This document shows, piece by piece, positions 1,312-23,714 of a stretch of DNA of 25,674 nucleotides. Position numbers and translations under genes: made by a program. How positions within the stretch are numbered: the stretch's first letter is position 1; the number at the start of each line of letters is the position of its first letter. The notes under the pieces were generated by a model. That model was given only the letters and a program-made list of their open reading frames with translations. It was not told the DNA's origin and made no database searches. The stretch is from positions 1-25,674 of IMG/VR virus record IMGVR_UViG_3300043452_000020; one strand, written 5' to 3'. Origin of the DNA: a virus.

Positions 1312-1324
1312 TATAAATACTATC
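1312..1324 (+). promoter_or_regulatory. T4-type late promoter of the portal gene
   Basis: A perfect TATAAATA lies at 1312-1319, followed by CTATC and then the ATG at 1325. The extension CTATC resembles the extended T4 late consensus. With T4 geometry (box at -13 to -6) the +1 base is the A of the start codon. Confidence 0.8.
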
Positions 1325-3127
1325 ATGGCAGGCATGATGAATAATCCTAATAATAGAACAAATATCTCAAGAGATGGTAAATCATCTTCTTATGATCGTT
1401 CTATGACATCATATTTAAAGAATCGTCTACCGTATAATTATAACGTTTTAGATTCCGACGACTCCAAAAATCCGAAATATAAATATTTCCAAAATGTGGG
1501 AATGCGTCGGCCTGAAGCGATTGCTAAAAATTCTGTTACTCTTAGTAATGATTATAATAATACGGCATTTTCCGCCATTGAGCAGGATAAAAGCTTCTCG
1601 AATATCATGTATGCTACGGCATCAGAAGATAAACCGGGAAGAATGCGGGATTATAGATCTATGGCAGCATTTTCCGAAATTGCTGATGCTCTGGATGAGA
1701 TTTGCGATGAGACTATAAATCCTGACGAAGATGATAATATCATCAAATTGAAGTTTAAAAATGCTGAATTGGATTCGGATAAAAAAGATGATGTCGTAAA
1801 GGAATGGGAAAAATATATCGAGCATTACGATTTACATAATAATGGCTGGCAATATTTTAGACAATTTCTCACTGAAGGGGAATTATATTTCGAGCAAATC
1901 ATTCATGAAGATTATACGCATGAAGGAGTTTTAGGCGTTATTAATATACCATCTGATCTTATCGATCCTGTTTATGGCAACATTCAAAATATGTTGGTTA
2001 AAGGATTCCTATATCAAAAACCAATTTTCGACAAGAATGATCCTAGAAAAGTTGAAAAATATGAACCGATTCCTTACGAGGAAAATCAGGTAGTATATAT
2101 TAACAATTCGTCATATAACGATACCAAGGAATTTATTATACCATTTATTGAAAATGCGAGACGTGCGTATCGTCAGCTCTCGATGATGGAAGATGCTATT
2201 GTTATCCATAGAATGGTTCATGCGCCTCTTAGATTTGTCTTTAATGTTGATGTTGGTCGTTTAAATGTCCCCCAAGCCGAATCATACCTACGAAAACTAC
2301 AAGCCCAATACTGGTCCACGAAAACTTTCGATGCTGATCAGGGGGATATTGTTAAAAAATATAGCCCACAATCAACTTTAGATTCTTATTGGTTTGCAAA
2401 AAGACAAGGCACGGAAGCCACGACAGTACAAGAAATCGGCGGACAATCTGGGGGTGATCAGATGGAAGGTCTTTATTTTTTCATTAAAAAACTTTATCGT
2501 TCTTTAAAGACCCCAACGTCTAGGTTAGACCCAGATGATTCATTTAGAGATGGGACAGATATTCTTAGAGAAGAATTGAAATTTGCCCGCATGATTATGC
2601 GCCAGCAACAAAAATTTGCTTCTGGTCTGAAGAGAGGATTTATCACTCATCTTAAACTTCGCGGTATGTTTAATGAATATGATCTAACCGAACAGAATTT
2701 AAATGTTATATTCAATCCTCCATCTAATTTCTATGAACTTAGAAATAATCAGAAGATGGAATTGAAGATAAATTCATTTAGCAATATGATTTCTAGCGGG
2801 AAAGTATCAGTATCTATGGCTATGAAGAAAGCATTAGGTTGGCAAGACCGCGATATCATTGCTAATCGGGGCTTTCTCTCAAACGAGGCCGAATTCGAAT
2901 GGACCCTTCAACAAGCATTACAATTTGGTCCAAATTGGCAACAGCAAGCTATACAACAAGCCCAAGCGGGAGTTCCAGCGGAAGGTTCTGATATGGGAGG
3001 TGGTGGATCACTGGGGGGCGGAATGCCTAGTATGGATACACCTATAGATATAGGATCAGAAGAACTTCCACCAAACGCTGGGCAAGAACCCACCCCAGAG
3101 ATAGTTCCTGAGAACCCGATAGCATAA
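1325..3127 (+). CDS. portal vertex protein (T4 gp20-like)
   Basis: The 600-residue product forms the dodecameric portal at one capsid vertex, through which DNA is packaged and the neck attaches. The 'YRSMAAFSEIADALDEICDE' region, the following acidic strand segment, and the helical core with 'AIVIHRMVHAPLRFVFNVDVGRLN' are typical of gp20-family portals, and the length is normal for the family. The C-terminus is a low-complexity Gly/Pro/Gln-rich tail. A TTG at 1292 would give a longer frame, but the ATG at 1325 sits exactly 5 nt after a perfect late promoter, which places any transcript start at this ATG. The gene is AT-rich, unlike the fibre genes on both sides. Confidence 0.9.
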   Translation: MAGMMNNPNNRTNISRDGKSSSYDRSMTSYLKNRLPYNYNVLDSDDSKNPKYKYFQNVGMRRPEAIAKNSVTLSNDYNNTAFSAIEQDKSFSNIMYATASEDKPGRMRDYRSMAAFSEIADALDEICDETINPDEDDNIIKLKFKNAELDSDKKDDVVKEWEKYIEHYDLHNNGWQYFRQFLTEGELYFEQIIHEDYTHEGVLGVINIPSDLIDPVYGNIQNMLVKGFLYQKPIFDKNDPRKVEKYEPIPYEENQVVYINNSSYNDTKEFIIPFIENARRAYRQLSMMEDAIVIHRMVHAPLRFVFNVDVGRLNVPQAESYLRKLQAQYWSTKTFDADQGDIVKKYSPQSTLDSYWFAKRQGTEATTVQEIGGQSGGDQMEGLYFFIKKLYRSLKTPTSRLDPDDSFRDGTDILREELKFARMIMRQQQKFASGLKRGFITHLKLRGMFNEYDLTEQNLNVIFNPPSNFYELRNNQKMELKINSFSNMISSGKVSVSMAMKKALGWQDRDIIANRGFLSNEAEFEWTLQQALQFGPNWQQQAIQQAQAGVPAEGSDMGGGGSLGGGMPSMDTPIDIGSEELPPNAGQEPTPEIVPENPIA

Positions 3128-3130
3128 TTT

Positions 3131-3193
3131 AACTTAGTGAACTACCACGGGGCTAAAGACCTAGGGGTTTTGGTCTCACCGTTTAGATAAGTT
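3131..3193 (+). other. nested stem-loop in the portal-fibre intergenic region
   Basis: Three nested complementary pairs are visible: AACTTA (3131) with TAAGTT (3188), ACGG (3147) with CCGT (3179), and AGACC (3157) with GGTCT (3172). There is no T-tract after it. It contains CCTAGGGGT (3160-3168), shared with the element at 13379. It could end portal transcription or be an RNA processing signal. Confidence 0.4.
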
Positions 3194-3204
3194 ATAATCT
3201 AATT

Positions 3205-3217
3205 ACTAAATATAATT
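3205..3217 (+). promoter_or_regulatory. late promoter, second fibre cassette
   Basis: ACTAAATA at 3205-3212 lies 5 nt before the ATG at 3218, matching seven bases of the CTAAATA/TATAAATA late pattern used by other genes here. Confidence 0.7.
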
Positions 3218-3640
3218 ATGGTAATAGATTTGGGAGATATACCAGTGGGGACTCCGCCGACTGAAGATCAAAAATTACAGATTCGCAACGCTATCGGCAT
3301 CACTGCCGCCACCGTTCCGAACACGCCCGCTGGCGGCATCGAAGCAACGACCGTCCAAGCGGCGATCAATGAGCTGGATGCGGAGAAAGCCCCGGCTGCG
3401 GCTTATGCCCGAACTGACATCGACACGACTTTCACAGAAAAAGCCATCGTCACAGGCGGCAAACTCATCCTCGGCGGCGTAGCAGATGGTCCCACTGGTA
3501 GGGCACTTCTTCAATCCTCAACGCAGGTTGCGGCGCAGACTGCCATCGGTATCGTGACGCTCACCCCGGCAGCGTATGCAGCACTTGTTCTAGCAGGCAC
3601 CACCTCCCCAACCACCATTTACATAACCACTGAATCATGA
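3218..3640 (+). CDS. fibre N-terminal module protein
   Basis: The product has 140 residues. Its first ~20 codons are AT-rich and use the local late promoter. It then switches abruptly to the GC-rich NAIGITAATVPNTPAG...AINELDAEKAP module shared with the fibre at 185. The C-terminal part is Ala/Thr rich with a short beta-like repeat. The stop overlaps the ATG of the next gene (ATGA at 3637-3640), so the two are translationally coupled and probably assemble together: this one as the particle-proximal connector and the next as the distal receptor-binding part. The composition switch near 3280 looks like a recombination junction between phage backbone and exchanged cassette. Confidence 0.6.
   Translation: MVIDLGDIPVGTPPTEDQKLQIRNAIGITAATVPNTPAGGIEATTVQAAINELDAEKAPAAAYARTDIDTTFTEKAIVTGGKLILGGVADGPTGRALLQSSTQVAAQTAIGIVTLTPAAYAALVLAGTTSPTTIYITTES
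3284..3422 (+). repeat. direct repeat, fibre N-terminal module, copy 2
   Basis: This is the second copy of the 139-bp element at 236-374, in the same reading phase and without gaps. The pair brackets the portal gene. Confidence 0.9.
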
Positions 3641-5289
3641 GCTACGCCGCTACATACCTAGGAACCAAGCCGATCATTAGCATTTCTGCTGGCGCTGACG
3701 GCATACCAGCTCCTACACCATGGGTCCGCCCTACTGATTGGCCTGCGCTTCCCGTGCTTGGCGCAGGTGAGCATAAATTTGTCGGCGTGTATGGCGTCGA
3801 GAACATTGATGCAAACTACGTGTCGCTGCTTTGCGCTACGTCCGAGGGGACTTACACCGTGGACTGGGGGGACGGAGTGGTCGAGACGGGGCTGGCGTCC
3901 AACGTCAAGCGGGATCACCTTTACGATTACGCCACCGTGGCAGGCACGCCGACAGCCGTGGGTGGGTGGAAGCCTGTTGTCGTAACCGTGACGACCAGCG
4001 GCGGGAACATGACCACCTTTAGCCTCCAACAGAAGCACTCACAAGCAGGATTGCCGAATGGAGTGAGATCGAATTGGTTGGATATCGCCATCAACGGTCC
4101 AAACCTAACGTCACTCACTATCGGCGGAACCTCTACCGTCGCACTGAGGGGCTTACAGCAGGCGACAATCGGGGTTCACGCTTTCACCTCTTGCCAAGAT
4201 CTGTTCAACGGCTGCTATGCGCTTCAGTCGGTGCCCCTGTTCAACACCGCAGCGGTGACGAACACGCAGTATATGTTCAGCAGTTGCTACGAGCTTCAGT
4301 CAGTGCCCCTGTTCAGCACCGCAGCGGTGACAAACATGCAGAACATGTTCTTCAGTTGCGTCTCGATTCAGTCAGTCCCCCTGTTCAACACGGCGAATGT
4401 GACGAACATGCAGAACATGTTCAGCGGTTGCTACGAGCTTCAGTCAGTCCCCCTGTTCAACACGGCGAAGGTCACGAACATGAGCAGCATGTTCTTCAAC
4501 TGTTACTCACTTCAGTCGGTGCCGCTGTTCAACACGGTTCTGGTTACGAACATGCAGACGATGCTGTCAAACTGCTATGCACTTCAGTCGGTGCCGCTGT
4601 TCAACACGGTTCTGGTTACGAACATGAACAACATGTTTCAGGGCAGCGCCTCGCTTCAGTCCGTGCCATTATTCAACACGGCGGCGGCGACGGGGATGAA
4701 TAGCATGTTTCAAGGCTGCTATGCGCTTCAGTTCGTCCCGCTGTTCAACACGGTGAATGTGAATAACATGCAAAACATGCTCAACAACTGCTATTCGATT
4801 AAGTCATTACCGCTATTTGACACAGCGAAGGTGACGACTATGCAGCAGATGTGCATCAACTGTTACTCGCTAAAGGAAGTCCCTCTATTTAATACGATTT
4901 TGGTGAATAACATGAACAACATGTTTCTGAGCTGCTTCTCGCTTCAGTCCGCGCCATTGCTCAACACCGTTGCGGTTACAAACATGCAGGGGATGTTTCA
5001 AGGATGCTCGTCGCTCGCAACCATCTCCGCACTAAATACCGCCGCCGTCACCACGGGGAATGCGTTGAACGTGTTTTCGGGATGCACGTCCCTCGCAAAA
5101 GCGCGAACTAATGGCCTCAGATTTGCCGTCAGCTACTCAGGATGCAGACTATCCGCCGCCCAGATTAACGATATTTTCACTGGCCTTGGAACGGCATCTG
5201 GGGCACAAACCATCACCGTCTCGAACAATTTCGGCTACGCTACTTGCACCCCATCCATCGCCACGGCAAAGGGATGGACAGTCGCCTAA
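3637..5289 (+). CDS. BspA-type (DUF285-like) repeat protein, likely receptor-binding fibre
   Basis: The 550-residue product has an N-terminal ~190-residue region with a 'YTVDWGDG' motif typical of the beta-sandwich that precedes DUF285/BspA repeats in bacterial surface proteins. Then come 11 clear 24-residue units plus one degenerate unit, of the form LQSVPLFNTAxVTNMxxMFxxCYx, and a C-terminal cap. BspA repeats are leucine-rich-like solenoids used for adhesion. Placement after a fibre N-module by an ATGA overlap supports a distal adhesin role. There is no signal peptide, as expected for a virion protein. Conserved Met and Cys lines run through the solenoid. Codon use is GC-rich. The function is inferred; a host-derived adhesin gene captured by the phage is likely. 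Confidence 0.65.
   Translation: MSYAATYLGTKPIISISAGADGIPAPTPWVRPTDWPALPVLGAGEHKFVGVYGVENIDANYVSLLCATSEGTYTVDWGDGVVETGLASNVKRDHLYDYATVAGTPTAVGGWKPVVVTVTTSGGNMTTFSLQQKHSQAGLPNGVRSNWLDIAINGPNLTSLTIGGTSTVALRGLQQATIGVHAFTSCQDLFNGCYALQSVPLFNTAAVTNTQYMFSSCYELQSVPLFSTAAVTNMQNMFFSCVSIQSVPLFNTANVTNMQNMFSGCYELQSVPLFNTAKVTNMSSMFFNCYSLQSVPLFNTVLVTNMQTMLSNCYALQSVPLFNTVLVTNMNNMFQGSASLQSVPLFNTAAATGMNSMFQGCYALQFVPLFNTVNVNNMQNMLNNCYSIKSLPLFDTAKVTTMQQMCINCYSLKEVPLFNTILVNNMNNMFLSCFSLQSAPLLNTVAVTNMQGMFQGCSSLATISALNTAAVTTGNALNVFSGCTSLAKARTNGLRFAVSYSGCRLSAAQINDIFTGLGTASGAQTITVSNNFGYATCTPSIATAKGWTVA
4222..5013 (+). repeat. tandem 72-bp coding repeats, 11 units
   Basis: Eleven in-frame 72-bp units encode the 24-residue BspA-like repeats; a twelfth, divergent unit begins at 5014. 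Some neighbours share long identical blocks (for example units 5 and 6), so unit gain or loss by slippage or recombination is likely. Confidence 0.9.
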
Positions 5290-5545: not shown

Positions 5546-5914
5546 TTAATTATTATAAGTAATCCCATTACCATTGTAATATAATACTTCACCATTAAAC
5601 CATAATGACGCAGATCCTGATTGATCACAAAAACTTACACAATTGAATTCTGGTTTATAATAATATTTGGTACCATTATTTGTCGATAACTCTAGGCCAA
5701 CATCACTAGCGACACCACACTTCAAAAAATATTTTTCGGAACCATTATTTGAAGTTACTGCTGGATATAACGTGGATTGCCCCCATAAAATAAATTCATT
5801 TGCAGAATTCCTATAATATCCAGTTGAATTATTGGAACTTAGGTTTGTAGTAGTCGATGAGACACCACAAGGTATCGCGTAATACTGTGTCCCATTATTA
5901 TCAGTGAGCGGCAT
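5546..5914 (-). CDS. small late protein with Asn/Tyr-rich repeats, unknown function
   Basis: The 122-residue product is not recognised. It contains about four degenerate units with a Asn-Asn-Gly-Thr...Tyr-Tyr core and recurring Cys-Gly ends, and is rich in Asn, Ser, Gly and Tyr, as in beta-structured decoration or fibre-tip proteins. It lies alone on the minus strand among plus-strand virion genes, yet its start is 5 nt after a GTTAAATA late box, so it is very likely an expressed late gene. A virion surface or fibre accessory protein is the best guess. Confidence 0.6.
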   Translation of the reverse strand: MPLTDNNGTQYYAIPCGVSSTTTNLSSNNSTGYYRNSANEFILWGQSTLYPAVTSNNGSEKYFLKCGVASDVGLELSTNNGTKYYYKPEFNCVSFCDQSGSASLWFNGEVLYYNGNGITYNN

Positions 5915-5927
5915 ATATATATTTAAC
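5915..5927 (-). promoter_or_regulatory. late promoter, minus-strand unknown gene
   Basis: Read on the minus strand, GTTAAATA (5927-5920) is followed by TATAT and the ATG at 5914. The same 5-nt spacing on the opposite strand supports a real signal. Confidence 0.7.
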
Positions 5928-6016: not shown

Positions 6017-6029
6017 CTTAAATAAGATT
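6017..6029 (+). promoter_or_regulatory. late promoter of the neck gene
   Basis: CTTAAATA at 6017-6024 is followed by AAGATT-type sequence with exactly 5 nt (6025-6029) before the ATG at 6030. Confidence 0.7.
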
Positions 6030-7178
6030 ATGTCTGATTCTAATCTCTGCCAAATCCAGCCGATTTCGGCATTCATGAGCACTAATCTATCATCTAAGAT
6101 AGAATGTTTTCAGGCATTAGGGGCTAGAATTCTTAGAATGTTGGGGCATCCAATGATTAATGTAGAGCTGCATCCAGATCAGTTATATGATGCTATATCG
6201 ATGGCCGTAGAATTCGCCACTAAGTATAGTTTATATACTAAAGAATATATAATTTTCGATAGTCGTTTATATGAACACGATAAAGGAATTCGATTAGATC
6301 ACTTATTCACAGTCGCCAATACTGGATATACTTTAAATGAGAAGTTGGCAGAATCCAATAAACCGAATCCAGATTTCAATATCCAAAATAGAAGCAATCT
6401 TTATATTCTAACGTCAGCCATTCCCAGTTCTTATTTTGCGTCAAGTTCCACCCTGAGTTCGGTCATACCAACAGACGGTATACCAGCAATGCAGGTGATG
6501 GAAGACTCGACGTATAATCAGTTGACAGAGTTCGACTCGTCACTGGCTAGTCTTTTTATATTATCCCCAGCAAAACCATTCACTATCCAATGTGAATCAC
6601 AAGAAAACGTAATTAAATATAATAATATGTTTGATTACGATACGATGGATTATCGAAAAGTTATAAGTGTTGTTGATTTTATAGAAGGTAGTTCAAGTGG
6701 GATAAATAGTTTATTCTCAATGGAGTCCACTATGGCTGCACAGTCATTCTATAGTTACAGCATGGGCAACTTTGGATTCGATTTGACCAGTTGGCATACG
6801 GTAAAAGACTGGCAAGATACTAGAGAGAAAGTTTTAGCTATTAAACGGGATATCCATTTCGATAATAGAACTCAATATTTGAGAATGTATCCCCAACCTA
6901 GAACCACATCAAATTTTGTGGGGATTTTAGAATGTTACGTTGAGCGTCCAATGAAGGATTGTATTTCGGATGCTTGGGTACTTCGCTATGCTACAGCATT
7001 GGCTAAAGTGATGTGGGGGAGAATACTTACTAAGGTTACTGGGGTTCAACTTTTAGGATCAGGGTCATTAAACGGGGATTTAATCCTAAACGAAGGTCTC
7101 TCCGAAGTCAAAGAACTTGAGCAGCTAATGATCGAAGGAAGCTATGACACTGAGCCTATTATGATGTTTTGTGGTTGA
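6030..7178 (+). CDS. neck protein (T4 gp13-like)
   Basis: The 382-residue product resembles gp13-family neck proteins that close the filled head and form the tail docking site. Supporting patterns are the N-terminal 'LGHPMINVELHPDQLYDAISMAVEFATKYS' and the C-terminal 'YVERPMKDCISDAWVLRYATALAKVMWG...VTGVQLLGSGSLNGD', followed by a glutamate-rich helix. It is somewhat longer than T4 gp13; the extra Ser-rich segment near residues 120-160 may be an insertion. It begins the block of head genes after the fibre cassette. The family match is by remembered motifs, so a related neck or head-completion protein is possible. Confidence 0.65.
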   Translation: MSDSNLCQIQPISAFMSTNLSSKIECFQALGARILRMLGHPMINVELHPDQLYDAISMAVEFATKYSLYTKEYIIFDSRLYEHDKGIRLDHLFTVANTGYTLNEKLAESNKPNPDFNIQNRSNLYILTSAIPSSYFASSSTLSSVIPTDGIPAMQVMEDSTYNQLTEFDSSLASLFILSPAKPFTIQCESQENVIKYNNMFDYDTMDYRKVISVVDFIEGSSSGINSLFSMESTMAAQSFYSYSMGNFGFDLTSWHTVKDWQDTREKVLAIKRDIHFDNRTQYLRMYPQPRTTSNFVGILECYVERPMKDCISDAWVLRYATALAKVMWGRILTKVTGVQLLGSGSLNGDLILNEGLSEVKELEQLMIEGSYDTEPIMMFCG

Positions 7179-7722: not shown

Positions 7723-7735
7723 TCTAAATATATAT
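7723..7735 (+). promoter_or_regulatory. late promoter of the prohead protease gene
   Basis: TCTAAATA at 7723-7730 is followed by TATAT and the ATG at 7736. It overlaps the end of the upstream gene's stop region. Confidence 0.75.
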
Positions 7736-8404
7736 ATGGCACTAAAACTTAGACTCATTGCTGAGACACCATATGATCTATCAGACTTCGAAATTATCGA
7801 AGAACAAAGCAATTTAAAAGGGCAGTCTAATTTATATGTAGCTGGCCCAATGATTGGGTGTGGTTCTAAAAATAAAAATGGGAGACTATATGAAAAAAAT
7901 AGCACCAGAACCGAAGTTGCTAGGTATATTGAAGAAATGGTAAAAACTGGTAGAGCAATGGGCGAATTGAATCATCCTTCTTCCGCTGACGTGAATTTGG
8001 AAAGAGCCTGTCATTTAGTGACCGAATTGAAAGAAACAGATGACGGTTTTTTCGGAAAGGCTAAAGTTTTATCGACTCCGTGTGGTCAAATATTACGAGC
8101 ACTTATAAATGATGGCGTTCGAATTGGTATGTCAACTAGAGCTTTAGGATCACTAAAAGACCAGTCTGACTATAATCTAGTGGAGAATATGCATTTAGTA
8201 GCTATTGATACAGTCGCCGATCCGAGTCATACCTCAGCATTTGTTGATGGTATATTAGAATCGCGTGAATGGATTATTTCTGATAATGGAAAATTTGAAG
8301 AATCTTATTCCAATTTTGATAAAGCCATTTCCCAAATTCCAAGGAAAGATGCTGATGCATATCTACGCGACCAAATTGTTCGGTTTATCAATCAACTCGG
8401 ATAA
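7736..8404 (+). CDS. prohead core protease (T4 gp21-like)
   Basis: The 222-residue serine protease cleaves scaffold and capsid proteins during head maturation. Family marks are 'MGELNHPSS' with the catalytic His at 80 and 'RIGMSTRALG' with the catalytic Ser at 133; a 'DTVADPSHT' stretch follows, as is usual in the S77 family. The length is close to T4 gp21. It stands directly before core, scaffold and capsid genes, the conserved 21-22-23 order. A predicted substrate site (I/L-x-E) is visible in the capsid protein at I55-E56-E57. Confidence 0.9.
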   Translation: MALKLRLIAETPYDLSDFEIIEEQSNLKGQSNLYVAGPMIGCGSKNKNGRLYEKNSTRTEVARYIEEMVKTGRAMGELNHPSSADVNLERACHLVTELKETDDGFFGKAKVLSTPCGQILRALINDGVRIGMSTRALGSLKDQSDYNLVENMHLVAIDTVADPSHTSAFVDGILESREWIISDNGKFEESYSNFDKAISQIPRKDADAYLRDQIVRFINQLG

Positions 8405-8412
8405 ATATCATT
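8400..8412 (+). promoter_or_regulatory. late promoter of the core protein gene
   Basis: GATAAATA at 8400-8407 overlaps the protease stop; 5 nt later is the ATG at 8413. Confidence 0.75.
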
Positions 8413-8691
8413 ATGAAAAATACTAAAGAACTTAAAACTAAAGGTAAAATTACTATCAAAGCCCCCAAGGTTAAAGATCGTAAAAAATTTGCCCCCGCAA
8501 CTAAGGTAGATAAATCCAAGAAGGATTACGATAGAAAAAAGGAAACATTCGACGAGTCCGCCAACATTGCGGAATTGGTAGATGCGATAATCACCAAGAA
8601 TTACGCTAAAGCTAATCAACACTTGAAGCAAGTAGTTGAAGCTAAAATATCAGAAAAAATCCAACAAGAGTTAAATACTCCGTTATTTTAA
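8413..8691 (+). CDS. small prohead core protein (gp67/gp68-like)
   Basis: The 92-residue protein has a very Lys-rich N-terminal half and a helical C-terminal half ('ELVDAIITKNYAKANQHLKQVVEAKI'), a pattern found in small core proteins encoded between protease and scaffold in T4-like phages. It probably shapes the internal core of the prohead. The assignment rests on position and this C-terminal pattern. No catalytic motif is seen. Confidence 0.65.
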   Translation: MKNTKELKTKGKITIKAPKVKDRKKFAPATKVDKSKKDYDRKKETFDESANIAELVDAIITKNYAKANQHLKQVVEAKISEKIQQELNTPLF

Positions 8692-8699: not shown

Positions 8700-8712
8700 G
8701 CTAAATATACAT
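8700..8712 (+). promoter_or_regulatory. late promoter of the scaffold gene
   Basis: GCTAAATA at 8700-8707 is followed by TACAT and the ATG at 8713. Confidence 0.75.
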
Positions 8713-9591
8713 ATGAGCCTAAAAAATCTGTTTTCCGAAGATGTTCAGAAGATTCTTACTGAAGAATCCATCACTGCAATTCAAGAAGCCTTTGACGCCA
8801 AAGTAGAACTTACAGTTGAATCTGCTTTGGAACTACAAGATGAAGAATACGCTACCAAGTTAAAAACTCTCATTGGAAGTCTTGATAAAGACCGGACCAA
8901 AAAGATGGCCAGACTTGTAGAGGCGGTCGATAAAAACAATGCTTCCAAATTAGTCAAAGTCGTTAAGCTTTATGAGCGCGAATCTAAAAAAGATGCTAAG
9001 AAGTTTAAAAAGCAAATCATCGAAACCGTTGGCCAATTTATCGAAACATATATCTCAGAAGCTGTTGATCAAAATGATATCGCACAGGCGGTTAAAAATA
9101 AATCGGCATTTAATGTTCTAGAAAATCTTCGTTCTGTTTTAGGCGTTGATGTTGCTATGATGAATAACTCTATCAAGGGTGCTGTTTTAGATGGTGCAGA
9201 TAAAATCAAAAATCTTCAAACTGAGAATACTGATCTCAAAAAGAAATTGAGCAATATCACAGAGTCTTACACCAAAATTGAAGTCAAATCTCTCCTAGAA
9301 GAAAAAACTGCAAAACTCCCAGAGTCTAAGAAGAACTTTATTCGTAAAGCTCTTCAAGATAAATCTGTTAAGTTTATTAATGAAAATTTTGATTACACCC
9401 TTCGTCTATTTGACAAACAAGAAAAAGAAACCCTTGTTACTCTCAAAGAAGAAGCAATCAATAACCGGTCTGTCAAGCCCGATGTGGTTCCAAAACAAAA
9501 AATTGTAGAAGAATCACTAAATAATAATGATGTTACACATGGCGACATGTATATATCAGAGCTTTCCAAAACTTGGGGGACCAAACGGTAG
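8713..9591 (+). CDS. prohead scaffold protein (T4 gp22-like)
   Basis: The 292-residue, highly charged, almost wholly helical protein is rich in Lys, Glu and Asp with few aromatic residues. It starts 'MSLKNLFSEDVQKILTEES', typical of gp22 scaffolds, and has a heptad-like region near residues 165-185. It builds the inner core on which the capsid assembles and is then degraded by gp21; several L-x-E sites are present. Size and order (21-core-22-23) fit the family. Confidence 0.85.
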   Translation: MSLKNLFSEDVQKILTEESITAIQEAFDAKVELTVESALELQDEEYATKLKTLIGSLDKDRTKKMARLVEAVDKNNASKLVKVVKLYERESKKDAKKFKKQIIETVGQFIETYISEAVDQNDIAQAVKNKSAFNVLENLRSVLGVDVAMMNNSIKGAVLDGADKIKNLQTENTDLKKKLSNITESYTKIEVKSLLEEKTAKLPESKKNFIRKALQDKSVKFINENFDYTLRLFDKQEKETLVTLKEEAINNRSVKPDVVPKQKIVEESLNNNDVTHGDMYISELSKTWGTKR

Positions 9592-9667
9592 TCCTAAGTC
9601 TAAAAAATCTCACAGACACCATGAGGCTTAGGTAGCCTGAATAAAATATAGAAAGAAATAAAATTAT
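9592..9667 (+). other. structured leader before the major capsid gene
   Basis: CCTAAG (9593) pairs with CTTAGG (9627), and inside it CTCA (9609) pairs with TGAG (9622). No late box at the 5-nt position precedes the capsid ATG, so this gene seems to be made from upstream transcripts with this hairpin as leader. The hairpin lacks a T-tract. It may affect stability, processing or translation. Confidence 0.4.
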
Positions 9668-11119
9668 ATGAAAGAAATTCCACAAACTGGTAATGAAAGT
9701 AAAATTCAAGGGCTTGTTAAGAAATGGGCCAAAGTTCTAGATTACGAAAGTAATTCTATCCCCGCCATTCAAAACGAGCACGTCTATAAGACGACCGCGA
9801 TGCTATTGGAAAACCAAGAGAAATGGTGTATTGAAGAAGCTGGAAACAACTCCGCTGGAGTATTTGGTGCAACTACCGCCAACAGTGGTCCGAACGTAAG
9901 TCCGAATCCTGATGGTTATGCTACCGGAGATTCCCGTCTTCCTAAAATTCTCATTCCTATGATTCGTCGTACTTTCCCTGAGCTTATCTCTAACGAGATT
10001 TGCGGTGTTCAACCTATGGGTGGTCCTGTTGGACTAGCTTTCGCTCTGCGTTATGCTTATTCCTCGACCCTCCTAAGTGAAGCTGATGAAGTCGGTAAAA
10101 CTGGTGGTGTCCGTGGAACTAATCCCGGACTAGGTTATGGTGGTCAAGATAGTTTACCTGCTGGTGAACTTGGTCATCAACTCCTAGACACTCGGTTTAC
10201 TGGTGTTAGTTCTGCCGCCTTAAGTGGTCACGCAGAATGGGCATTCAGTCTTCAGGATACAGGTGTTGCACAACTACTCGCAAACTACGAGAACACTGGT
10301 CGGATTCCACAGATCGAAATGAAGTTTGAAAAAACCTCAGTCGAAGCCGGAACTCGCAGACTAGCTACTCGTTGGTCAATCGAGCTTGAACAAGATATCA
10401 AAAATATGCAAGGCATCGACATCGATGGTGAGCTTACTAATGCGATGTCTTACGAAATTCAAGCAGAAATCGACCGTGAAGTTGTTATGCGGATGATCCA
10501 AGCAGCGTTTAACGCTGGTTATGGTGCTGGTATCTCCATCTGGAGTCCAGTAAGTGCAGACGGTCGTTGGACTGCGGAGCGTAATCTTACATTCTATCAA
10601 CGTTTGATCATTGAGTCTGGTCGTATGGCTGCTCGTAACCGTCGTGGTGCTGCTAACTTTGTTATCTGCACTCCTCGCGTTTGCAGTATTCTAGAAATGC
10701 TTCCCGACTTTAAGGTGTTTGAAATCAACGGATCAGTATCTACTACTGGTGTTGGTATCGCAAAGGTTGGAACTGTAGGTTCTCGTTTCACTGTCTATCG
10801 TGATACTCGTACAGAAGTTCAAAACTCTACACTCTATGGAAGCAATGGTTATAGCCCAGTTCGCACTGAAGCTGTTGAATATTGCCTAATGGGTTATAAG
10901 GGTTCTGAATACTATGATACTGGTATTATCTATTGCCCATATATTCCGATTATGGTTCAACGTGCTATCGATCCTATTAACTTCACTCCCCGTGTCGGTC
11001 TAATGACTAGATACGGTATTGTGAATAATATTTTCGGGGCCGCCCTCTATTACCACATCATTGTAGTCAAGGGACTTGGTGTTGCGTTTACACCGGGCAG
11101 TGTGAGTACATATCTGTGA
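9668..11119 (+). CDS. major capsid protein (T4 gp23-like)
   Basis: The 483-residue HK97-fold protein forms the capsid hexamers. The 'ISNEICGVQPMGGPVGLAFALRY' region and 'AARNRRGAANFVICTPRVCSILE' are gp23 hallmarks. The N-terminal ~57 residues form the delta domain expected to be removed by the gp21 protease; the site I55-E56-E57 followed by Ala-Gly-Asn fits its I/L-x-E preference. The start ATG follows a purine-rich stretch without a clear Shine-Dalgarno. Codons are strongly biased and more uniform than in neighbours, as expected for the most abundant product. The gene ends at a strong GC-rich terminator. Confidence 0.95.
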   Translation: MKEIPQTGNESKIQGLVKKWAKVLDYESNSIPAIQNEHVYKTTAMLLENQEKWCIEEAGNNSAGVFGATTANSGPNVSPNPDGYATGDSRLPKILIPMIRRTFPELISNEICGVQPMGGPVGLAFALRYAYSSTLLSEADEVGKTGGVRGTNPGLGYGGQDSLPAGELGHQLLDTRFTGVSSAALSGHAEWAFSLQDTGVAQLLANYENTGRIPQIEMKFEKTSVEAGTRRLATRWSIELEQDIKNMQGIDIDGELTNAMSYEIQAEIDREVVMRMIQAAFNAGYGAGISIWSPVSADGRWTAERNLTFYQRLIIESGRMAARNRRGAANFVICTPRVCSILEMLPDFKVFEINGSVSTTGVGIAKVGTVGSRFTVYRDTRTEVQNSTLYGSNGYSPVRTEAVEYCLMGYKGSEYYDTGIIYCPYIPIMVQRAIDPINFTPRVGLMTRYGIVNNIFGAALYYHIIVVKGLGVAFTPGSVSTYL

Positions 11120-11245: not shown

Positions 11246-11258
11246 GTTGAATACTCCT
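11246..11258 (+). promoter_or_regulatory. late-type promoter of the homing endonuclease
   Basis: GTTGAATA at 11246-11253 followed by CTCCT and the ATG at 11259 keeps the 5-nt spacing with one change in the core (TTGAATA for TTAAATA). A TTGACA lies about 17 nt upstream (11225), so a hybrid promoter is possible. Confidence 0.5.
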
Positions 11259-12833
11259 ATGACCGAGACGAGTATTAAGCACGAACTTTCCAAATACATC
11301 GAGGAAAAACATAAGGGAACTTGTCGAAAGATAACCCCGAAGGAAATTATTAATATTGTCTGTAAGGATTCTATAATAAAGATTAAACAGATTCTTCCAA
11401 TAGAACTACAGATGTCATTTCCTATAATGATTCATTGTTTTATTAATGACATTCGAGATATTCCAAAATGTTTTTGTGGTGAAATCTTACCTTTTAATAA
11501 TAGCGATTTCCGATTTGCAAAATACTGTTGTAATAAATGTCGATTCGAGAATGCGGAGGAAACAGTAAAAATCAGACAGGAGACTAACCTAGAGAAATAT
11601 GGTAAAACTAATTATCTTGCTACTAGCGAGGGTAAAAAGAAAATCGAGGAAACATCTATGTTAAAATATGGAGTAAAAAATCACACCCAATCTCAACAAT
11701 ACAAGGATAAAGTTTCGGGTAGAATTGTTCCTAAAATATCGGTAGAACGAACTCGATTAATACTACTAAAACAATCATATGAAACTTTCAAAATAAAATA
11801 TACCAATTGTGTGCCACTCTTCACAATGGAAGAGTATGAGGGGGTTCGAGGTTATAGAAAATATTCTTGGCACTGTAATACATGTGATAAGGATTTTATA
11901 TCATCCATTCATAATGGGTGTTCTCCGATCTGTTCGCATTGTAAGCCAATTGGATCATTACATGAACTTGTATGTAAGAAGTTTCTCGATGATTTAAATA
12001 TTTCATATAATTTCAATGATCGAAAGGTTTTGGACTCTGGGAAGGAAATAGATTTATTCATTCCACATAAAAATTTTGGAATCGAACTGTGTGGATTATA
12101 TTGGCATTCTACGGCTGGCCCATATTATGCTAAAATGAATCATGTTACAAAATTGGAAGAATGTGAGGAATTGGGAATCAAGTTATTCACCGTTTATGAT
12201 GACGAAATGTATGATTTAAATAAGCGTCGAATTGTCTTCAATAAGATTAAAAATGTATTAGGGTTGACAAAAAGAAAGATATATGCAAGAAAATGCCAAA
12301 TAATTGAACTAGCCCCAAACACATGCACTAAATTTTTGGAGAAATATCACATTCAGGGCACTATTGGCGCATCTTACAGGTATGGATTAACATATAAAAA
12401 TAAATTAGTTGCAGTAATGACTTTCAATAAGGGAAGAACTGCAACGGGACACACCGCAAAGGATAATGAATGGGAATTGGGACGATACTGTTCGATTTTC
12501 AACTTTTCTATAGTTGGAGGGGCCAGTAAACTAGTTACGCACTTTATAAGAACCATAAATCCTGAAGTGGTATATTCATATGCTGATAGACGATGGAGCA
12601 ATGGAGGAGTGTATGAAAAACTTGGGTTCTCTTTTATTAAAAACAGTGCTCCAAATTACTGGTATACCCGAGGATTTAAAACCCGAGAGCATCGAGTAAA
12701 ATATAGAAAGCATAGTCTTAGAGATTTCCCATCTTATGACGAGAATCTTTCCGAACATGAAATAATGCTAAAGGAGGGGTTTTATAGAACATGGGACTGT
12801 GGAAGCAAACTGTACACTTGGAAAAAACAATAA
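11259..12833 (+). CDS. free-standing homing endonuclease, Vsr-like (EDxHD type)
   Basis: The 524-residue product has three parts: an N-terminal zinc-finger-like segment with paired Cys (CFCGE...CCNKC, about 70-100); two DUF723-type DNA-binding repeats of the form LEKYGxxN (about 112-145); and a C-terminal nuclease with 'GSLHE', 'GKEIDLFIP' and 'GIELCGLYWHS', fitting the EDxHD (Vsr-like) homing endonucleases such as I-Bth0305I. A further C-terminal domain with many Arg/Tyr follows. Such enzymes cut alleles lacking them and spread by repair. It sits just past the capsid gene terminator, where T4 relatives also carry such genes. A TTG at 11247 is rejected as start because of the late box before 11259. 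Confidence 0.8.
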   Translation: MTETSIKHELSKYIEEKHKGTCRKITPKEIINIVCKDSIIKIKQILPIELQMSFPIMIHCFINDIRDIPKCFCGEILPFNNSDFRFAKYCCNKCRFENAEETVKIRQETNLEKYGKTNYLATSEGKKKIEETSMLKYGVKNHTQSQQYKDKVSGRIVPKISVERTRLILLKQSYETFKIKYTNCVPLFTMEEYEGVRGYRKYSWHCNTCDKDFISSIHNGCSPICSHCKPIGSLHELVCKKFLDDLNISYNFNDRKVLDSGKEIDLFIPHKNFGIELCGLYWHSTAGPYYAKMNHVTKLEECEELGIKLFTVYDDEMYDLNKRRIVFNKIKNVLGLTKRKIYARKCQIIELAPNTCTKFLEKYHIQGTIGASYRYGLTYKNKLVAVMTFNKGRTATGHTAKDNEWELGRYCSIFNFSIVGGASKLVTHFIRTINPEVVYSYADRRWSNGGVYEKLGFSFIKNSAPNYWYTRGFKTREHRVKYRKHSLRDFPSYDENLSEHEIMLKEGFYRTWDCGSKLYTWKKQ

Positions 12834-13467: not shown

Positions 13468-13480
13468 ACTAAATAATAAC
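13468..13480 (+). promoter_or_regulatory. late promoter of a small unknown gene
   Basis: ACTAAATA at 13468-13475 is followed by ATAAC and the ATG at 13481. Confidence 0.75.
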
Positions 13481-13846
13481 ATGGCTATCTATTCTTTTAA
13501 TACCGTCTTACTCTCCGCCCAAAAAACAGGAATCCCGAATCTAATCGGAACCTCACTATCAGCATCGGGAGTCGGCACAGTATCTCTATCTACCAATGAT
13601 GTTGGTATATCGTTCGCCTCTATCACGCCTTTACTTTCATCAAGTGTCGCCATTAATGTGAAGGGTTCTGTATTCAATATTGATACAGCATATAATAACT
13701 CCACGATGGCCCTAATACACCCACTAGGCGGGTATACCACATTCACTGTTCAATCAGCAAACCCCACCACCCCGTTATCAGCATTCACATCAGGGCATTA
13801 TATTTCAACTCCTGATACTCGACGCAAACGTAATTTAGGATACTGA
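13481..13846 (+). CDS. small late protein, probably structural, unknown
   Basis: The 121-residue protein is not recognised. It is rich in Ser, Thr, Ala, Val and Gly with alternating hydrophobic patterns, suggesting beta structure, and has a basic C-terminus (RRKRNLGY). It has its own late promoter and a perfect terminator immediately downstream, making it a single-gene late unit. Such isolated, strongly bounded genes are often abundant virion proteins such as capsid decoration or tail proteins, but this is inference only. Confidence 0.6.
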   Translation: MAIYSFNTVLLSAQKTGIPNLIGTSLSASGVGTVSLSTNDVGISFASITPLLSSSVAINVKGSVFNIDTAYNNSTMALIHPLGGYTTFTVQSANPTTPLSAFTSGHYISTPDTRRKRNLGY

Positions 13847-13905: not shown

Positions 13906-13918
13906 GTTAAATATTAAC
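13906..13918 (+). promoter_or_regulatory. late promoter of the spike gene
   Basis: GTTAAATA at 13906-13913 is followed by TTAAC and the ATG at 13919, starting 3 bases after the terminator ends. Confidence 0.8.
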
Positions 13919-14659
13919 ATGTTTGCGCGTGGAAGTGGCAGTGGTCTAGAATATAAAAGAGTAGATAATGCCTTTTATAAAGGTGTTGTCGTGGATAATA
14001 ACGATCCTAGTAAACTCAATCGAGTTAAAGTATATATACCAGAACTAACCAACCAGCCATTCGATTCTTGGATTGATGAATATGATAGTATCAATATCAA
14101 TTCGATAGGAGAAAACATTAAATCCAAATGGAACGAGAAAGAGACCAATGGGGATTGGTCTGATGTTTCGATATTTGATGATATATGCGAAAACATTCCT
14201 TGGGCAGAGCAATGTTTTCCCTTATTTGGAGAATCTGGAAATTTTAGATATTATAAAGATGGGGAGATAGCAACCATCTCTGATTGTAATTATATTGAAG
14301 GGTTCCAGACGAATGATTCAGATCCTATCACACTGAAAAACGGTTCGTTTTCCCCCTCATTTATATATGAAAATGTCGGAACTCGATTGGGGGATGCTTT
14401 CAACAAGCCCTTGGACAATTTCACAGTAAATGCTAATCCATACTCATTTCAATATGCGCCATCAAATAATGTCAATAAATCCAAAGGAGTGTTTGGGATT
14501 CCCGAAGTGGGCGCTAAAGTGTGGGTGTTCCACTACGAAGGGGATTTGAATTTTCCTATTTATTTTGGAGTTGTTGGAAAATCTTATAGAGAATTGTCAT
14601 TAATAAACAATACAGATAATGATAAATCTATAGGTATAAAATATCCCAATGGATTCTAA
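13919..14659 (+). CDS. baseplate central spike/hub, gp5-like OB-fold part
   Basis: The 246-residue product begins with the gp5/VgrG-type OB-fold: 'YKGVVVDNNDPSKLNRVKVYIPEL', an inserted acidic loop, 'WAEQCFPLFG', and 'GIPEVGAKVWVFHYEGDLNFPIYFGVVG'. In T4, gp5 carries this fold, then a lysozyme, then a triple-stranded beta-helix. Here the frame stops at 'KYPNGF' before the spike shaft, which continues in another frame just downstream. No lysozyme domain is present. The start at 13919 rather than 13889 is chosen because 13889 lies in the terminator and 13919 follows a late box at the standard spacing. Confidence 0.75.
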   Translation: MFARGSGSGLEYKRVDNAFYKGVVVDNNDPSKLNRVKVYIPELTNQPFDSWIDEYDSININSIGENIKSKWNEKETNGDWSDVSIFDDICENIPWAEQCFPLFGESGNFRYYKDGEIATISDCNYIEGFQTNDSDPITLKNGSFSPSFIYENVGTRLGDAFNKPLDNFTVNANPYSFQYAPSNNVNKSKGVFGIPEVGAKVWVFHYEGDLNFPIYFGVVGKSYRELSLINNTDNDKSIGIKYPNGF

Positions 14660-16512: not shown

Positions 16513-17184
16513 TCATTTTATTTCATCCACTATACCATAATTTAAACATTCATCTGCCGTTAGATAGATATCTTTAGTCATCAATTCGTCCAACCTTTTC
16601 ATTGGAACCTTGGTATTCTTCTTATAGAACTCTTTGAGTAGTTTCATAAGCATTGTTGCAGAATCCATTCCAGCTTGAAGATCGGCAAATGTTCCGTATA
16701 TGGCACTAGACAATTGATGTATAAGCATATGAGCGTGCTTGCCACAATATCTTTTATCTCCCACTGCGCTTATGAGGGTTCCAGCAGATGCCACTAAACC
16801 GTCGGCGTATGTATATACATCTGATTTTAAATTTAGGATAGTATCCACAGTGGAAAATGCAGCATAAATCTCCCCGCCCGGCGTATTGATATGTAGGTGG
16901 ATTACTGGTTTATAGTCGTCTCCTAAAATATTTCTCAGGTTTTGGAGCTTAAGGTCTAGCTCTATTAATACCCTATTAAGCTCTAAGCATGACTGCTCAT
17001 CTATTTCACCGTAGAAAAATAACTTATTCTCCACTACTCTAATACCGCAGGATGGTAGGGGGGATTCTTGAGCGTTGATGAACATGGGGAATCCTGTCAT
17101 CGCGGACTGTTCAGTATCATCATCGTCTTCAGACGCTAAACGATGTTTTTTAAGTTTCCAATTCATTTTTGTCGATTTTGTCAT
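16513..17184 (-). CDS. ClpP-like serine protease
   Basis: The 223-residue product carries the full ClpP triad: Ser133 in 'GLVASAGTLIS', His156 in 'HMLIHQLSS' and Asp205 in 'MTKDIYLTADE', plus the 'INTPGGEIYAAF' oxyanion-region motif and the 'GIVDEI' ending. An acidic, low-complexity extension of about 40 residues precedes the fold; it may be a propeptide. No ATPase partner is in the window, so it may use a host ClpX/ClpA-type unfoldase or act alone. It starts 1 base after the small ferredoxin-like gene and belongs to the reductase operon. It is distinct from the gp21 prohead protease. Confidence 0.9.
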   Translation of the reverse strand: MTKSTKMNWKLKKHRLASEDDDDTEQSAMTGFPMFINAQESPLPSCGIRVVENKLFFYGEIDEQSCLELNRVLIELDLKLQNLRNILGDDYKPVIHLHINTPGGEIYAAFSTVDTILNLKSDVYTYADGLVASAGTLISAVGDKRYCGKHAHMLIHQLSSAIYGTFADLQAGMDSATMLMKLLKEFYKKNTKVPMKRLDELMTKDIYLTADECLNYGIVDEIK

Positions 17185-17185: not shown

Positions 17186-17344
17186 TTATTTAAAGTAAGT
17201 TATAGGGAATTCCGTGATTCCGGTTTTTATTGATTCTTTCACATAAGGATTGCATAGTCTACACTTATCACATATTCCATCTAAAGATGGTAATTTTATA
17301 ATATCTTTAAATGTTATATTATAGCATATGCATTTCGTGATCAT
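17186..17344 (-). CDS. BFD-like [2Fe-2S] protein, 52 residues
   Basis: The start overlaps the reductase stop as ATGA (17344-17341), and the stop TAA lies 1 base before the ClpP ATG. The product has Cys5-x-Cys7 near the N-terminus and a Cys25-x2-Cys28-x2-Cys31 cluster, then 'PYVKESIKTGITEF'. This matches the small BFD-like [2Fe-2S] family, where CxC and CxxC bind the cluster and a 'CGLCxPYI...TGET.F' ending is usual. Being translated directly after the reductase suggests a redox role, such as electron supply or sensing, but that is inference. Cys25 is an extra cysteine relative to the four expected ligands. Confidence 0.7.
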   Translation of the reverse strand: MITKCICYNITFKDIIKLPSLDGICDKCRLCNPYVKESIKTGITEFPITYFK

Positions 17345-21003: not shown

Positions 21004-21037
21004 AATTGTTATAATTGTTCGGCGTAGACTTTTCCCC

Positions 21038-21066
21038 ATTGTAATCTGAATCTAGCTTAAAGTCAA
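21038..21066 (-). promoter_or_regulatory. sigma70-type promoter of the reductase operon
   Basis: On the minus strand TTGACT (21066-21061) and TACAAT (21043-21038) are separated by 17 nt. The -10 box overlaps the ATG at 21039, so transcription starts downstream of it and the ATG at 21003 is used, leaving a leader of about 25-30 nt. This promoter class differs from the late boxes, suggesting earlier expression by host polymerase. Confidence 0.75.
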
Positions 21067-21147
21067 CCTTCGTTCGCTCGAATATTTAATCACGGCAAAT
21101 TTGAAATCCGCCATTTAAAAAACATTCCCGATTAGATAAATAACCAC

Positions 21148-21160
21148 ATTAAATAAGAAC
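21148..21160 (+). promoter_or_regulatory. late promoter, unknown gene at 21161
   Basis: ATTAAATA at 21148-21155 is followed by AGAAC and the ATG at 21161. It is divergent from the reductase promoter. Confidence 0.75.
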
Positions 21161-21502
21161 ATGGACATTGGATTATCTGACGCATATAACGAAATTCTGG
21201 AAGAATCTGGGGGCGGTTCGGCAATGGGCCGACTCCCAATCAAAGGGGGGCTGCAAGCACCGCAGGACGCCAAGAACACCTTATCCAGTAACAGCTCAAA
21301 GATTGGCGTTACCCAAGGCAGTCTCTACAATCAAAGTCAGGCTAGTGGGCAAAATCCTTACGAACAAGAAGAATCAAAAGCTATTGACAAACAAAAAATC
21401 TGTGGTATTATAGATCTCCTCTCAGGTGATTTAGATATATCTAAGATAACAGATAGATCTGCTATAATGGTTTTAGGAAAATTAAAAAAGATGATTAATT
21501 AA
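21161..21502 (+). CDS. 113-residue late protein, unknown
   Basis: No family recognised. The N-terminal part is a short helix (DIGLSDAYNEILEE) followed by a Gly/Ser/Gln/Asn-rich flexible middle. The C-terminal ~40 residues are helical and charged (KICGIIDLLSGDLDISKI...LGKLKKMIN). It has its own late promoter, suggesting a virion or assembly protein. A shadow frame overlaps it but lacks the promoter. Confidence 0.6.
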   Translation: MDIGLSDAYNEILEESGGGSAMGRLPIKGGLQAPQDAKNTLSSNSSKIGVTQGSLYNQSQASGQNPYEQEESKAIDKQKICGIIDLLSGDLDISKITDRSAIMVLGKLKKMIN

Positions 21503-21539
21503 AAAAAAATCAGGAAAATAATCTCGATTGAGTTAAATG

Positions 21540-21780: not shown

Positions 21781-21788
21781 ACGGCTCA

Positions 21789-21826: not shown

Positions 21827-21831
21827 ACAAT

Positions 21832-21905: not shown

Positions 21906-21910
21906 CTCAC

Positions 21911-22184: not shown

Positions 22185-22189
22185 TTGTT

Positions 22190-22618
22190 ATGACACAAGT
22201 GAAAATTAAACTACTGCATCCAGACGCACAATTACCTATTCGTTTCAATGAAACTGATGCGTGTTATGACGTATATGCCGTTACTAAAAATTATATCGAA
22301 CATAATAGATATGAATATGGTCTAGGATTTTCCCTAGAATTACCCCCCAATACTCAATTGGATCTTAGATCACGTTCATCGATATATAAAACCGGATTAA
22401 TACTTAGTAATTCGATAGGAACTGGCGATGAAGATTATCGAGGAGAATACAAAGCAATTTTTTATCATGTGAATTCGGACCTACCCGAATATAATATCGG
22501 TGATAGAATTCTACAGATTCAATTGAGGAGTAGAGAAGATGTAAATTTTGTCATTTCCGATGAACTGAATATTACCGATCGAGCAGATGGTGGACATGGC
22601 AGCACTGGACTTAGGTGA
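22190..22618 (+). CDS. dut: dUTPase (deoxyuridine 5'-triphosphate nucleotidohydrolase)
   Basis: The 142-residue trimeric dUTPase hydrolyses dUTP to dUMP, limiting uracil in DNA and feeding dTMP synthesis. All five motifs are visible: DACYDVYA (23-30), RSRSSIYKTG (60-69), SNSIGTGDEDYRGEY (73-87), GDRILQIQL (104-112) and RADGGHGSTG (131-140). In motif 5 the usual Phe that stacks on uracil is His136, and motif 3 lacks the usual Val-Ile-Asp run. Length is normal. It converges with the lysis genes with only 4 bases between stops. Together with the class II reductase it indicates phage control of the dNTP pool. Confidence 0.9.
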   Translation: MTQVKIKLLHPDAQLPIRFNETDACYDVYAVTKNYIEHNRYEYGLGFSLELPPNTQLDLRSRSSIYKTGLILSNSIGTGDEDYRGEYKAIFYHVNSDLPEYNIGDRILQIQLRSREDVNFVISDELNITDRADGGHGSTGLR

Positions 22619-22622
22619 AATA

Positions 22623-23339
22623 TTATTTAGATTCGACACCGAGTTTAAATAATTCCGATTCCGAGTCTCGCCTCAGCCACAACCCTTTCAAACTCGGACC
22701 CCACAATCTTTTCATCGATTTGATATCTGATGGGACTCTATCTTCTCTACTGATAGAGATGTTATACTTTATCCATCTCATTTCTTTTCTAGAATCTGAA
22801 CTGGATAATGATGGACCTCTATTATAAACTAATGATACTAGCGATCCATTTGAATGTGGGTGAAGCCTATCAGAAGTAATACCAAATGCGTCTGCGGTCT
22901 GTTTAGTGAAAGACGGTAGTGTATATTTATTAAAAATTGCCTGTGCTTGAGACCAAGTGAGCTTTATTTTATACTTCACTTTAGGGAGACCATTGTAATA
23001 CGCGCTTCGCCCTTTCATCCCAGAAACCGTCTGAAGAAGTTTTATATCTTCTTCGGGTAGAATCCCGGTAAAAGCTTTAACCATTTGCTCATGGGTTAAA
23101 TACCCACAATCCGCTCCTATCCCTATGGTCACTCCGCTCATAGTAGTTTGCCATGCAGGTACGATTGGTTTCGAATAATATTTATCAAACTCTCTCTCAC
23201 CACCACCTATCTCATAGTAGCATATCAAATCGATAGATTTCTGTGAAATAGGTAGGCTCAATCCATCTGAGATAACATCATTTGGATCACCTCTAGTTAA
23301 AGGGGATGATAGTAGTAGTAATATACTAATCCATTTCAT
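22623..23339 (-). CDS. endolysin, lysozyme/pesticin-like muramidase with N-terminal signal
   Basis: The 238-residue product starts at 23339, where TAATG joins it to the holin-candidate stop. A longer frame from 23402 would put 21 charged residues before the hydrophobic 'MKWISILLLLSS' and is rejected. The mature part has 'DLICYYEIGGG' (candidate catalytic Glu43), 'MSGVTIGIGADCGY' (Thr71, Asp77) and 'LVSLVYNRG', as in GH24/pesticin-type lysozymes. The hydrophobic start is short, so it may be a cleaved signal peptide or a signal-arrest-release anchor, with export by Sec rather than through the holin. Confidence 0.85.
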   Translation of the reverse strand: MKWISILLLLSSPLTRGDPNDVISDGLSLPISQKSIDLICYYEIGGGEREFDKYYSKPIVPAWQTTMSGVTIGIGADCGYLTHEQMVKAFTGILPEEDIKLLQTVSGMKGRSAYYNGLPKVKYKIKLTWSQAQAIFNKYTLPSFTKQTADAFGITSDRLHPHSNGSLVSLVYNRGPSLSSSDSRKEMRWIKYNISISREDRVPSDIKSMKRLWGPSLKGLWLRRDSESELFKLGVESK

Positions 23340-23701
23340 TATTTTGATGTCCAAGATAACATAATAACCCCGAACAGAAACATGAACGTTCCGAGTATCC
23401 ATCTAGTTTTTTCGGTCGGCGACATTGAAGACCATCCAATATTAAAATTGTCTCCAAAATCCTTACCTAATGTTGATGGAAATACCACACGGAATATTGT
23501 CCATACCAATGCTGATCCAAATGAAACCCGAGAAATTAAAGCGGCGAAGTCTACAATGTTATAAATTGCTGTGAAATTAAACATCGTATCAATCCACCCC
23601 GATGATTTCAAACATGTGAAAAATATACCAACACCCACTAGGGCATATACCCAATCTATTTTAATGCCGTTACACTTAATTTTATTTTTATCCTTTGTCA
23701 T
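23339..23701 (-). CDS. holin candidate, three membrane segments
   Basis: The 120-residue product has hydrophobic segments at about 17-31, 45-70 and 101-117 and a Lys-rich N-terminus. It lies directly before the endolysin with overlapping stop and start. Position, size and membrane topology fit a holin or pinholin, but no sequence family is recognised. It is driven by its own late box, so it can be made apart from the upstream spanin gene whose stop overlaps that box. Confidence 0.65.
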   Translation of the reverse strand: MTKDKNKIKCNGIKIDWVYALVGVGIFFTCLKSSGWIDTMFNFTAIYNIVDFAALISRVSFGSALVWTIFRVVFPSTLGKDFGDNFNIGWSSMSPTEKTRWILGTFMFLFGVIMLSWTSK

Positions 23702-23714
23702 ATTACTATTTAAT
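23702..23714 (-). promoter_or_regulatory. late promoter of the holin-endolysin pair
   Basis: Minus-strand ATTAAATA (23714-23707) is followed by GTAAT and the ATG at 23701; its first base is shared with the upstream stop codon. Confidence 0.75.

Follow-up and report, generated by a model that had tools for sequence, protein, structure and literature searches.

Late transcription in bacteriophage T4 is a textbook system in which the mRNAs carry leaders and Shine-Dalgarno sites. T4 late promoters have the consensus octamer TATAAATA, with consensus positions that start at T(-13), and are served by the late sigma factor gp55, the co-activator gp33, and the sliding clamp gp45 (PMC2988020); the corresponding late promoters of cyanophages S-PM2 and Syn9 read NATAAATA (PMC2984593). 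Leaderless messages have been described elsewhere, as middle and late transcripts of the Thermus phage phiYS40 mostly lack leaders (PMC3594737), and leaderless genes of bacteria are commonly recognised by a TA-like signal some 12 bp ahead of the start codon (PMC3160421). Here we describe a 25,674-bp stretch of viral DNA (IMG/VR record IMGVR_UViG_3300043452_000020; 61% AT), hereafter the window, in which TAAATA, the core of the T4-type late box, repeatedly ends exactly five nucleotides before an ATG start codon, an arrangement from which an earlier note, made from the letters of the window, had predicted leaderless late mRNAs. Judged from its genes, the window covers part of the genome of an uncultured T4-like phage: it encodes T4-type structural proteins (portal gp20, an Ad2/gp13-like adaptor, head closure, gp21 protease, gp23 capsid, and a gp5-like hub), and matches of the portal, protease, capsid, and head-closure proteins to PHROG families (E from 1e-22 to 1e-83) place it in the T4 superfamily, with a capsid protein at most about 34% identical to those of cultured phages.

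The spacing between box and start codon in the window is real and not due to chance. TAAATA-N5-ATG occurs 11 times (nine forward, two reverse), while across 100 dinucleotide shuffles of the window the count averaged 0.93 and peaked at 4, and the reversed pattern, used as a control, gave 0 matches. Among all 41 copies of TAAATA in the window, 11 have an ATG at distance 5 and the remaining distances hold 0 to 4 copies each. It might be argued that an AT-rich genome yields such coincidences, or that TAA stop codons simply meet downstream starts, as some boxes do overlap an upstream stop; the TAA at 8402-8404, for example, is both the gp21 stop codon and the first half of the TAAATA of the next gene. 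The shuffles, which never reached 11, and the distance comparison refute this explanation, control hexamers composed of those six letters form no similar peak at a fixed distance from ATG, T4, Syn19, and S-PM2 lack the lock, and boxes are also found at strand switches; the probability that we assign to it is close to nil. Where the earlier note had reported a box at five nucleotides for 12 starts, 11 have exact TAAATA and the twelfth (11259) has TGAATA, with one mismatch; of four more genes said to have the box at 8-11 nucleotides, three were recovered (24764 on the reverse strand at 8, 24829 at 10, and 25202 at 11) and a fourth was not found. At 17184 on the reverse strand the box is merely 2 nucleotides from the ATG, and no late box was found in the window at the major capsid gene (9668) or the head-closure gene (7231).

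For comparison, 80 relatives with 60-89% capsid identity were taken from IMG/VR, including four of about 200 kb (G001, G003, G005, and G007). The motif scan of relatives that had been proposed as a check showed the lock to be genome-wide in these four, with 53, 46, 45, and 42 copies of TAAATA five nucleotides before ATG, a peak that stands over a background of about 6 per distance and is not the product of random distances; by contrast, the box in T4, Syn19, and S-PM2 peaks 21-29 nucleotides before ATG, with no comparable peak at 5. A motif-free scan of all hexamers at all ATG distances gave TAAATA at five nucleotides as one of the highest-ranking elements in each of G001, G003, and G005, and the same scan in T4 returned AGGAGA at five nucleotides, which is the Shine-Dalgarno site. 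In G007, coding repeats dominated the scan when every ATG was included, and TAAATA at five nucleotides came out top when gene starts only were used. The distances are also one-sided, with totals of 77, 39, and 44 at 6, 7, and 8 nucleotides (an excess) versus 24, 19, and 10 at 2, 3, and 4 nucleotides (at or below background; p=1e-13). Conservation of the spacing is clearest in gp21, where nearly all ATG-started upstream regions of orthologs keep the 5-nucleotide distance while the five spacer letters vary, and in the gene at 13481, where the box is at five nucleotides in 23 of 34 distinct upstream regions, 23 of the 34 beginning with ATG. Orthologs of the gp5-like gene have the box mostly 5-7 nucleotides from ATG, and those of the open reading frame (ORF) 5546-5914(-) have it at 5-7 nucleotides in 5 of 6 distinct upstream regions.

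The boxes mark a particular class of genes. With Syn19 core genes mapped to clade ortholog groups by profile hidden Markov models, a box at 5-9 nucleotides was found at 30 of 48 structural genes versus 6 of 60 replication and metabolism genes (the six being phoH and nrdB), a difference for which the Fisher p of 8e-9 is indicative only, because group members are orthologs and hence not independent; at exactly five nucleotides, the counts were 18 of 48 and 0 of 60. The clade box retains the TAAATA core and tolerates variation at its first two positions, which are mostly A or G (-13) and T or C (-12), and base counts down to -27 revealed no -35 element, that is, no conserved block besides the octamer. 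No enrichment of Bacteroidota-type promoters (TAnnTTTG) was seen upstream of genes. A gene for gp55 (phrog_234, E about 1e-25) was found in 8 of 9 relatives, its product aligning with gp55 of T4 and Syn19, and homologs of the clamp loader gp44/gp62 are present in the clade. An 8-bp box that starts at -13 ends at -6 and would place +1 six bases past its end, which in the clade is the A of ATG; T4 itself calibrates this position, with a purine found there after TATAAATA in 21 of 26 sites. The one-sided spread of distances also fits a transcription start, because a start codon may fall at or after +1 but never before it.

Among genes without a late box, a second ATG-locked element occurs, namely TTAAACACTA at a fixed 15 nucleotides before ATG in G001 and G003 and TTAATTAAAACCGA at a fixed 14 nucleotides in G005; a scan of G007 restricted to gene starts found no second class. 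Aligned, these sites read TTAAACACTA-N3-TAtAAT-A-N4-Y-ATG and TTAATTAAAACCGAAc-TAtAAT-A-N4-Y-ATG, with the -10 hexamer exactly at -12 to -7 of the ATG, a sharp lower limit in the distances, and a pyrimidine at -1 in 79 of 79 sites (G001 and G003 together). Each class thus has its own spacing: a sigma70 promoter needs 6 nucleotides from hexamer to +1 and the late box 5, and these registers support the view that both promoter classes converge on the A of AUG as +1. Second-class genes may be early or delayed-early. The upstream block, TTAAACACTA or TTAATTAAAACCGAA, is unfamiliar, stands directly before the -10 hexamer, and differs between lineages, which suggests a changing recognition factor that is encoded or modified by the phage. 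AACACTA and AAACCGA were considered as promoters of replication genes and were ruled out, as they mark other genes.

Whatever their class, genes of the clade showed no anti-Shine-Dalgarno signal (2-7% of genes versus 2-5% when shuffled), and duplex energies agree; the same gene caller reported Shine-Dalgarno sites in 55% of T4 genes versus 8% shuffled and in 46% versus 11% for the cultured pelagimyophage HTVC008M (NC_020484). Without such sites a replacement signal would be expected, and TAAATA at -11 to -6 could be read as one that acts in the RNA, as an A/U-rich site for the ribosome or S1, with transcription starting further upstream; A/T-rich signals have indeed been described for Bacteroidetes (PMC3160421). 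Yet nearly all replication genes, which need translation as well, lack TAAATA, and another gene class carries a different promoter-like element in its own register. TAAATA moreover equals the T4 late promoter, which in T4 and cyanophages is found 21-29 nucleotides upstream, and a spacing signal in the RNA should give a two-sided, symmetric spread rather than the hard lower limit at five nucleotides. We therefore give an RNA-level signal very little credence.

For the motif, its spacing and conservation, the class of genes that it marks, the gp55 gene, and the lack of Shine-Dalgarno sites, the best explanation is very probably that gp55-type late promoters are fused to start codons and yield leaderless late mRNA. 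TAAATA boxes would act as T4-type late promoters read by the host RNA polymerase carrying gp55, and their placement would make the A of the start codon the first transcribed base, so that late mRNAs would be leaderless, or would have leaders of 1-5 nucleotides where the box is 6-10 nucleotides away, with no Shine-Dalgarno site. Translation would then proceed by direct recognition of the 5'-terminal AUG. The rule would extend to the sigma70-like class (TTAAACACTA-N3-TATAAT-N6-ATG and its lineage variant), promoter and start codon would form one element at the heads of many transcription units, and box-less genes, many of them packed behind the preceding gene, would be read from polycistronic mRNA.

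Several observations weigh against this explanation. The earlier note had proposed a search for gp55- and gp33-like factors, and while the former are present as described above, gp33 (phrog_254) was matched in 0 of 8 relatives, though it was found in T4 and Syn19, and gp45 (phrog_223) in a single relative (G009). The gp33 of the clade could be too diverged for detection; our claim is therefore for a T4-type promoter and sigma factor and not for a complete T4 late activation system. Where the box is 6 nucleotides away, the base at the expected +1 shows no purine enrichment, and the pyrimidine at -1 is favoured, less strongly, at box-less genes too and is thus not specific to the late class. Read-through from upstream promoters could also be a source of leaders, and the major capsid gene, presumably the most expressed late gene, has a structured leader in place of a box. 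Some of these points suit a variant in which the boxes are late promoters with an imprecise start, a few nucleotides off (giving short leaders or a start within the codon), and translation proceeds mainly from read-through polycistronic mRNA: boxes at 6-9 nucleotides occur as well, the purine preference is missing at distance 6, and many late genes are internal to operons. This variant does not explain why the boxes peak sharply at exactly 5 and are almost absent at 4, why the distance persists in orthologs, or why the second class has a matching register, and we consider it unlikely.

The leader of the capsid gene consists of an ATGAGG...CCTGA hairpin followed by an A/G-rich tract, found in the same place in about 40 distinct relatives; by eye, the stem letters covary between lineages (GGC/GCC, GGTC/GACC, GGGA/TCCC, GGAA/TTCC, and AGC/GCT), and a comparison with Rfam gave no match. 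Possibly, this leader is a structured RNA element of a new kind that takes the place of leaderless initiation at the gene for the most abundant protein. The gp32 gene has an A-rich leader, and genes with neither promoter, mostly packed 10 nucleotides or less behind another gene, presumably rely on polycistronic mRNA that lacks Shine-Dalgarno sites. The idea of leaderless late mRNA thus draws support from the register, the genome-wide lock, the structural genes, gp55, the one-sided distances, and the lack of Shine-Dalgarno sites and gives way at the capsid gene. The predicted fusion is not specific to late genes, as a second promoter class is positioned alike and Shine-Dalgarno sites are absent everywhere, and the proposed genome-wide fusion proves wider than claimed through this second class and yet not total, with many operon-internal genes having no promoter. 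On balance, we find it likely, if with appreciable doubt, that this T4-like clade has abandoned Shine-Dalgarno initiation, with at least two promoter classes, most unit heads leaderless, structured leaders retained just at special genes such as that of the major capsid protein, and initiation at 5'-terminal AUG by the host used or remodelled.

Table 1. Predicted late boxes and the capsid-gene leader in the window.
Element	Gene	Position	Strand	Match
Late box TATAAATA + N5 + ATG	Portal gene gp20 (1325-3127)	1312..1327	+	portal phrog_213, E=1.7e-83
Late box ACTAAATA + N5 + ATG	ORF 3218-3640 (no function given)	3205..3220	+	
Late box GTTAAATA + N5 + ATG	ORF 5546-5914(-) (no function given)	5912..5927	-	
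Late box CTTAAATA + N5 + ATG	Head-tail adaptor gene, Ad2/gp13-like (6030-7178)	6017..6032	+	phrog_211
Late box TCTAAATA + N5 + ATG	Head maturation protease gp21 (7736-8404)	7723..7738	+	phrog_207
Late box GATAAATA + N5 + ATG	ORF 8413-8691	8400..8415	+	
Late box GCTAAATA + N5 + ATG	ORF 8713-9591 (position of scaffold gp22)	8700..8715	+	
Leader with conserved hairpin (about 9625-9637) and A/G-rich tract, no late box	Major capsid gene gp23 (9668-11119)	9620..9670	+	
Weak variant TGAATA + N5 + ATG	HNH homing endonuclease ORF 11259-12833	11248..11261	+	
Late box ACTAAATA + N5 + ATG	ORF 13481-13846	13468..13483	+	
Late box GTTAAATA + N5 + ATG	gp5-like baseplate hub gene (13919-14659)	13906..13921	+	
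Late box ATTAAATA + N5 + ATG	ORF 21161-21502	21148..21163	+	
Late box ATTAAATA + N5 + ATG	ORF 23339-23701(-)	23699..23714	-	
Late box ACTAAATA 8 nucleotides before ATG, predicted 3-nucleotide leader	ORF 24435-24764(-)	24762..24780	-	
Late box TTTAAATA 10 nucleotides before ATG, predicted 5-nucleotide leader	ORF 24829-25191 (DPBB_1)	24811..24831	+	
Box-like AATAAATA 11 nucleotides before ATG, predicted 6-nucleotide leader	ORF 25202-25405	25183..25204	+	

The coordinates of these elements are collected in Table 1. A second late box lies 13 nucleotides upstream (21135) of the one that precedes the gene at 21161, and the pair (21135-21163) is kept in relatives. Elsewhere in the window, a ribonucleotide reductase of 1232 amino acids (17341-21039, reverse strand) contains an intein splicing domain (Pfam PF14890), and the forward ORF 3637-5289, which has DUF285 repeats and a GC content of 51-55% compared with about 35-40% around it, looks from this contrast like a recent acquisition; ORF 185-1132, at 52% GC, resembles it in this respect. 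In relative G003, ARAGORN called a tRNA with a CTA anticodon, an amber reader, within a tRNA cluster (piece L108, 13136-13210), and amber suppression or recoding in this phage is possible. A search of bacterial genome contigs for a related capsid gene, as a lead to the host, found none.

With regard to other uncultured T4 relatives, the Far-T4 phages also fall outside the T4 and cyanophage groups (PMC4360716), and the present clade may correspond to them; core genes for transcription regulation were not detected in the Far-T4 study (PMC4360716), whereas gp55 was found here. Cultured T4-like phages Cr30, PhiW-14, Aeh1, BUCT-ZZ01, and Astolliot lack the lock, Mel-JY01 (10 versus 11 in the control) and CP220 (6 versus 2) are not clearly above control, and RHph_I1_18 (6 versus 0) provides a weak lead. 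HTVC008M has a weaker version of the lock, with 14 TAAATA-N5-ATG sites, 12 of which are deposited gene starts, including those of DNA end protector, head closure, tail tube cap, baseplate, and tail completion genes, while many of its other genes keep Shine-Dalgarno sites. Earlier work did not find late promoters in pelagimyophages (PMC7029224); the HTVC008M sites are candidates for them. HTVC008M also encodes bS21, which was ruled out as a phage translation factor of the clade, being present only in HTVC008M and absent from the clade.

Among leaderless systems, the TA-led genes of Actinobacteria and Deinococcus-Thermus, whose -10 element lies some 12 bp ahead of the start codon (PMC3160421), are matched by our second class; those genes are cellular, and the clade adds a motif (AAACACTA or AAACCGA) that immediately precedes the -10 element. 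The leaderless mRNA of phiYS40 is experimental and that of the clade predicted, and phiYS40 is not known to have a T4-type gp55 promoter system. Leaderless phage mRNA and the T4-type late promoter are already known; no report of leaderless late mRNA in T4 relatives was found in the open-access full-text literature. If our reading is true, the clade is one of the few instances of leaderless gene expression on a large scale, and the virus would either need the 5'-AUG initiation of its host or remodel it. Leaderless translation becomes testable in a large and widespread phage group, with HTVC008M as a cultured test case, and the spacing provides a rule for annotating uncultured phages from sequence, both for their start codons and for their late operons.

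Finally, compared with T4, the clade has the first two box positions relaxed and no detected gp33, its genes lack the Shine-Dalgarno sites that T4 genes have, and its boxes stand at 5 rather than the 21-29 nucleotides of T4, Syn19, and S-PM2. With the late promoters of T4 and of S-PM2 and Syn9 it has in common the octamer core, the association with structural genes, and the use of both strands, along with a gp55 gene in relatives. A T4-related clade in which this same promoter is apparently fused to the start codon would thus illustrate how transcription and translation signals can merge.

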